Shown here in pieces: positions 30,686-47,049 of a stretch of 64,000 bases of DNA. Source of the stretch: Candidatus Eiseniibacteriota bacterium (GTDB taxonomy: Bacteria > Eisenbacteria > RBG-16-71-46 > CAIMUX01); NCBI GenBank assembly GCA_903844735.1, contig CAIMUX010000111.1:1-64000 (forward strand). The letters run 5' to 3'. Made by a program: the position numbers and the translations under genes. Each line of letters opens with the position of its first letter. Position 1 is the first letter of the stretch. The notes under the pieces are model-generated. The model saw nothing but the letters and a program-made list of their open reading frames with translations, did no database searches and was not told the origin of the DNA.

Positions 30686-30852
30686 CGTCGGGCCGGAGGG
30701 CATCGAGTAGTCTCTGGAGGCCGCGAATCAGCTCGCCGGACCGGGCCACAAGCTCGGCGTGATCCTCCACGCCCAGCATGCCAAGCCGGCGCGCCGGCCC
30801 CGGACGGGCCCCTGCTCATGCCACATCCCGAAGCCAGAAGCCTTCGAAGCTC

Positions 30853-31362
30853 AGATCGCAGTTCGGCGGAACCATCATCGGCGAGCCGTTCAACGTGATG
30901 AATGCCGGGCGGATGGTCCTTCTGAAGGATCCTCAGGGCGCGACGGTCGCGGCGTGGCAGTCGAAATCGCACATCGGCGCCGGGATTATCGATGAGATCG
31001 GCTCTCCTTGCTGGTCCGAACTCAACACCTCCGACTCCTTCGGCGTGGAGAAGTTCTACGAGAGCGTCTTCGGGTGGGGCGTGAGGACCGGCCCCATGCA
31101 AGCCGACACCTACACCGAGTGACTGGTGGGCGGCAAGTTCGCCGCGGGCACGATGCAGATTCTTCCCGAGTGGGGACCCGTCCCCCCGCACCTCCTCGCC
31201 TACCTCCGCGTCGGCAACTGCGATAAGACCGTCGCCAAAGCGGCCGCTATAGGGGCGAAGAACCTGGTCCCGCCCATGGATATCCCCAAGGTGGGACGCT
31301 TCGCCGTCATCCAGGATCCGCAGGGTGCGGTCTTCACGGTGATCGCTTTGAACCCGGCATAA
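30853..31362 (+). pseudogene. VOC-family (glyoxalase-like) pseudogene
   Basis: Two VOC modules in one frame match the two-domain glyoxalase/bleomycin-resistance-like proteins: FNVMNAGRMVLLKDPQG ... FYESVFGWGV, then GPVPPHLLAYLRV ... VGRFAVIQDPQGAVFTV. The first module lacks its N-terminal half and has no start. An in-frame TGA at 31120-31122 interrupts the second domain after YTE, where relatives carry an aromatic residue. A TGG-to-TGA change fits. A selenocysteine reading is unlikely, since the position is not a redox Cys. Confidence 0.7.
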
Positions 31363-46647: not shown

Positions 46648-46815
46648 CCGGTGATCCTCCATCGCCCCTATATCGGCCGGGGCAGGCTCAGGCTTCAGCG
46701 GCTGCGCCCCCGGGTCGCCATCGAAATGCAGAATCTGCTCGCCGCCGGGACGTCCCGGGCATACCCTCGCCGCGCACCCGGCACGGGATGAACGAGGATC
46801 CGAGGAGTACCCAAG

Positions 46816-47049
46816 ATGAAGCTACGGATCGAATACTGCGGCGAGTGAGACTACCTCCCGAGGGCCTCCAGTCTGGCGGCCGAGGCGAAGATGCGGTTCG
46901 GCGTCGAGTCCGAGCTTGTCGAGGGGCACGGGGGTGCCTACAAGGTCTGGATCGACGACGAGCTGATCTGGGACAAGAAATCGATGGGAGGTTTCCCCCA
47001 GGAAGAGGAGATCCTCGAGAAGATTGCGACCCGGGGAGGTCGCACCTAA
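46816..47049 (+). CDS. selW: SelW/Rdx-family selenoprotein (in-frame TGA as selenocysteine)
   Basis: ATG at 46816 follows GAGGAG. The frame reads MKLRIEYCGE, then TGA at 46846-46848, then DYLPRASSLAAEAK and on to TAA at 47047, giving 77 residues. Reading TGA as selenocysteine gives the CxxU redox motif (Cys8, Sec11) after beta strand 1, exactly as in SelW/SelT/SelH proteins. The later VWIDDELIWDKKSMGGFP matches the Rdx thioredoxin-like fold. A hairpin 14 bases after the TGA could be the bacterial SECIS. Standard gene finders would miss or truncate it. The probable role is a small thiol/selenol redox protein. Confidence 0.85.
46863..46881 (+). promoter_or_regulatory. Candidate bacterial SECIS hairpin
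   Basis: GGCC at 46863 pairs with GGCC at 46878. An inner CCA/TGG pair closes a GTC triloop. It starts 14 bases after the TGA, within the usual SECIS distance, and lies inside the coding sequence as bacterial SECIS elements do. Confidence 0.5.

Follow-up and report, generated by a model that had tools for sequence, protein, structure and literature searches.

The window, a stretch of 64,000 nucleotides from a Candidatus Eiseniibacteriota bacterium (positions 1 to 64,000 of contig CAIMUX010000111.1, forward strand), carries a small selW-like coding sequence on its forward strand at positions 46816-47049. The gene has 77 codons, starts with ATG and ends with TAA, and its sole in-frame TGA is codon 11 (46846-46848, forward strand). 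When this TGA is translated as selenocysteine (Sec), the product is a protein of 77 residues, including Sec11: MKLRIEYCGEUDYLPRASSLAAEAKMRFGVESELVEGHGGAYKVWIDDELIWDKKSMGGFPQEEEILEKIATRGGRT. Cys8, Gly, Glu and Sec11 (TGC GGC GAG TGA, 46837-46848, forward strand) form a CxxU redox motif, assigned from the sequence and from aligned relatives, where the first strand ends; homologues align a CxxC motif at this point. A ribosome-binding site, GAGGAG, is found in the sequence at 46802-46807 on the forward strand, 8 nt 5' of the ATG.

The read-through protein belongs to the Rdx family, as it passes the curated cut-offs of two profiles along the whole domain. Pfam PF10262 (Rdx) matches it with 71.5 bits (cut-off 22.6, E-value: 6.6e-20) from residue 3 to residue 71 of 77, corresponding to profile positions 2-73 of 74, and TIGR02174 (CXXU_selWTH) matches it with 59.1 bits (cut-off 34.2, E-value: 3.8e-16). 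The best NCBIfam E-value (4.1e-21) is that of NF041051 (SelTWH_Campy), but the score of 75 bits is under the curated cut-off of 88 for this equivalog and the protein is not a member of it. Both flanks of the TGA align with the solved SelW-like chains 3dex and 2fa8, and the homologues viewed, both those of solved structure and those from plasmids, have Cys at position 11. The gene therefore has the pattern expected of a selenoprotein, with a TGA at a position that aligns with Cys or Sec and conservation that continues 3' of it.

Fourteen nucleotides past the TGA begins a putative bacterial SECIS hairpin of 19 nt, GGCCUCCAGUCUGGCGGCC (46863-46881, forward strand). Its stem has seven pairs and one U.C mismatch, and there are eight pairs in those relatives where the mismatch position pairs. 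The apical loop, GUC at 46871-46873, is closed by an A-U pair, and the G-U of the loop lies 22 nt from the UGA. According to a published bSECIS model, the apical loop has 3-9 nt with a G in the first two positions (PMC13188914, Fig. 2), the loop is mostly of the form N1-G-[G/U]-N-N2 with N1 and N2 paired, the upper stem has 4-16 bp, the spacing from the UGA is 16-37 nt and the minimum free energy (MFE) is at most -7.5 kcal/mol (PMC13188914). When these rules were applied by hand, the hairpin agreed with every constraint on loop, stem, spacing and energy; its loop follows the pattern N1-G-U-N-N2 and the MFE of the 19-nt element folded alone is -9.5 kcal/mol. An Rfam search of the window at the gathering thresholds gave no match. 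An earlier note, written from the letters of this DNA, had described the 77-codon frame with Cys8 and a TGA at codon 11, full-length SelW similarity on both sides of the TGA, a good ribosome-binding site and a hairpin 14 bases after the TGA, and had proposed alignment with Cys homologues at position 11; each of these features was recovered here.

Conservation of the TGA and the hairpin

A Pfam Rdx search was carried out over 47 genomes of the class, and the phylum as a whole was represented by these 47 genomes alone (one class). An Rdx gene was found in 31 of them, and each of these 31 genes contains exactly one in-frame stop, which is a TGA every time. Thirty of the genes (the window gene and 29 relatives, whose proteins share 44-54% identity with that of the window gene) were aligned; the TGA column is identical in all 30 and the protein is conserved through to its C-terminal end. 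A chance origin of the TGA is excluded by this recurrence of a single TGA in 31 of 31 genes, at the same column in those aligned. No Cys form of Rdx was found among the 47 genomes. As 16 of the 47 have no detectable Rdx gene, the group as a whole does not depend on the SelW-like protein.

The surroundings of the gene provide no indication of function, since the reading frames nearest to it in the window either have no Pfam match or encode BtpA and an M78-type peptidase, and no neighbour adjoining selW is common to more than one third of the relatives. In about 10 relatives (L022, L023, L028, L029, L033, L036, L042, L044, L047 and L050), a MurB-like frame, recognised by eye, lies upstream of selW on the opposite strand; the window genome is not among them. 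The pattern of a separate search for relatives demanded a codon for Cys where the window gene has Sec, and the search was thus blind to Sec relatives. Its sole match, L051 on an Omnitrophota contig, is short, does not read as SelW and was rejected.

The aligned genes also bear on the hairpin. When the hairpin sequence of the window gene was folded singly and compared with shuffles of this GC-rich DNA, its energy was no lower than that of the shuffles (z = 0.28). Because the energy is unexceptional in this comparison, the case for the hairpin rests on the relatives. RNAalifold gives the same hairpin as the consensus of the 30 aligned sequences. Standard pairs occupy 92.1% of the pair cells in this alignment, as compared with 20-51% for structures slid along it, and none of 500 shuffles matches either the observed percentage paired or the covariation score. 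Covariation is moderate: double changes occur in three of the eight pairs, while three of the eight never vary.

The strongest sign of the hairpin is found in codons 18-20, where residue 19 varies between Ser, Gly and Arg while the RNA motif RGKYUGG stays. Among the 30 aligned genes, codon 19 is AGT in 20 of 20 cases of Ser, GGT in 8 of 8 cases of Gly and AGG in 2 of 2 cases of Arg. Outside codon 19, the same genes use AGT for only 2 of 81 Ser codons and GGT for 26 of 200 Gly codons (Fisher's test, with shared ancestry ignored: 3e-19 for Ser AGT and 2e-7 for Gly GGT). Judged from these aligned sequences, nucleotide conservation in the hairpin exceeds conservation of the protein. Eight Cys-type homologues from other phyla have no conserved hairpin, although they are distant and form a weak control.

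These data can be set against the possibility that the selenoprotein is real and the hairpin a mere by-product of protein or codon conservation, the true SECIS element lying elsewhere or having another shape. The hairpin does lie within a conserved stretch of the protein (YLPRAxSLAA), in GC-rich DNA, and its folding energy is unremarkable. Protein conservation would not explain why RGKYUGG is kept while residue 19 changes, or why the rare codon AGT recurs at every Ser19, and both the position of the hairpin and its apical loop fit the bSECIS consensus. We consider such a by-product to be very improbable, even though it is the least improbable of the alternatives.

Decoding of TGA in the host

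The host genome (5.4 Mb in 142 contigs, 95.8% complete) contains a complete Sec machinery. SelA is matched with 485 bits (contig C123), SelB with 325 bits in a frame of 714 aa (contig C53) and SelD with 368 bits (contig C103), and a tRNA-Sec with the anticodon UCA is encoded on contig C2. Across the class, selA was matched in 43 of the 47 genomes. The tRNA-Sec gene, in the region at about 50010-52800 of contig C2 (L013/L004), does not adjoin selA or selB, and is found by eye about 0.9 kb upstream of a gene for a LepA-like elongation factor.

The host selD gene (in locus L010, contig C103, 141522-145445) itself contains one TGA, in the motif CAGU-ASK. This motif is typical of Sec-type SelD. A 19-nt hairpin with a G-first loop begins 12 nt past the selD TGA; in this one genome, the selD and selW-like hairpins are thus equal in size and nearly equal in their distance from the TGA.

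If the selW-like TGA were instead a true stop, the gene would be a Cys-type SelW gene in decay, carrying a nonsense mutation or a sequencing error. Decay of this kind does occur in the window. A glyoxalase/VOC-like fragment at 30763-31362 (forward strand) contains a TGA in its frame at 31120 and lacks any N-terminal part that could be recognised. It surfaced in a coding-potential scan and serves as a natural negative control: its closest relatives carry Phe or Trp at the TGA site, without a stop, and it was rejected as a selenoprotein in favour of a decayed copy or sequence errors. The selW-like gene differs from a decaying gene in several respects. The in-frame TGA is present in all 31 independent genomes with an Rdx gene, the protein downstream of it is conserved, no Cys form was found in the class, and the Sec machinery is in place. 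The conserved TGA and the conservation that follows it in sister genomes rule out a pseudogene, and a true stop has a very slight probability indeed.

The least probable reading, that TGA encodes some other residue throughout the genome, for example Trp (code 4), can be rejected: one relative of the glyoxalase-like fragment does have Trp at the TGA site, but most of its aligned relatives have Phe there, the SelW TGA aligns with Cys and not Trp, the best-scoring UGA-reading tRNA in the genome is the tRNA-Sec, and TGA is in normal use as a stop, since it terminates 12 of the window's 28 long coding-like frames.

The earlier note had proposed that the region encodes a SelW-type selenoprotein, had drawn from this that the organism should possess selA, selB, selC and selD, and had pointed to sister genomes as a place where a genuine stop without downstream conservation might appear. 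All four genes were found on searching, and the sister genomes keep both the TGA and the sequence downstream. The proposal itself is borne out by the Rdx match, the conserved TGA, the Sec machinery and a hairpin that fits the bSECIS model and shows constraint on synonymous codons.

Probable selenocysteine insertion and comparison with known SelW-like proteins

Based on these results, we conclude with high confidence that 46816-47049 encodes a Sec-containing SelW-like protein of the Rdx family, a redox protein with a thioredoxin fold, into which Sec is predicted to be inserted at codon 11 by way of SelB and the hairpin. As judged from the established biology of Sec decoding, the TGA almost certainly inserts selenocysteine instead of stopping translation. 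By the established pathway, SelB carrying Sec-tRNA(UCA) would bind the predicted hairpin, which follows the UGA after 14 nt, through recognition of the apical-loop G-U. Selenocysteine would thereby be delivered at codon 11, and a C-x-x-U redox motif would be formed in the loop that follows the first beta strand. By analogy with other SelW proteins, the product is probably a small selenol/thiol oxidoreductase. More tentatively, it is possible that the phylum keeps SelW solely as the Sec form and that a nearly invariant SECIS apical motif throughout the phylum, CC-RGKYU-GG, reflects a lineage-specific preference of SelB in recognition.

The gene is a further SelW-like selenoprotein in a family whose bacterial members have been known since at least 2005, and it leaves the general understanding of such proteins unchanged. 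Its identification confirms a selenoprotein whose gene may be cut short or left out by standard gene callers, which take the TGA for a stop codon. The results also indicate that this phylum decodes selenocysteine, given selA in 43 of 47 genomes and a TGA in every Rdx gene found. The 30 aligned elements are a good comparative set for the recognition of SECIS elements by SelB.

SelW-like proteins were the most numerous selenoprotein family in the Sargasso Sea set of 2005, with 48 genes (PMC1088965), and in 2006 SelW-like selenoproteins were recorded from several sequenced bacteria, with the comment that this family is one of those for which Sec-containing organisms have hardly any Cys homologues or none (PMC1794560). 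Like the bacterial SelW-like selenoproteins of Geobacter, Desulfotalea and the Sargasso Sea (PMC1088965, PMC1794560), the window protein has a CxxU motif close to the N-terminus and matches a thioredoxin-like profile over its whole length, and its gene, in a Sec-decoding bacterium, has a TGA in frame and, beyond it but still within the gene, a putative bacterial SECIS hairpin. By E-value it also resembles NF041051 (SelTWH_Campy, a SelT/SelW/SelH family (seleno)protein), while by score it falls outside that narrow equivalog. It belongs by sequence to the same family as the solved Cys-type SelW-like proteins (3dex SAV_2001, 2fa8 Atu0228, 2obk, 2oka, 2ojl and 2p0g). Those chains are longer (103-108 residues, as compared with 77), Cys occupies the TGA position in 3dex and 2fa8, the two alignments viewed, and the Cys genes examined have no hairpin. 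In the features compared, the window protein shows no substantive difference from the known bacterial SelW-like selenoproteins; here, across 47 genomes, every Rdx gene found is of the Sec form.
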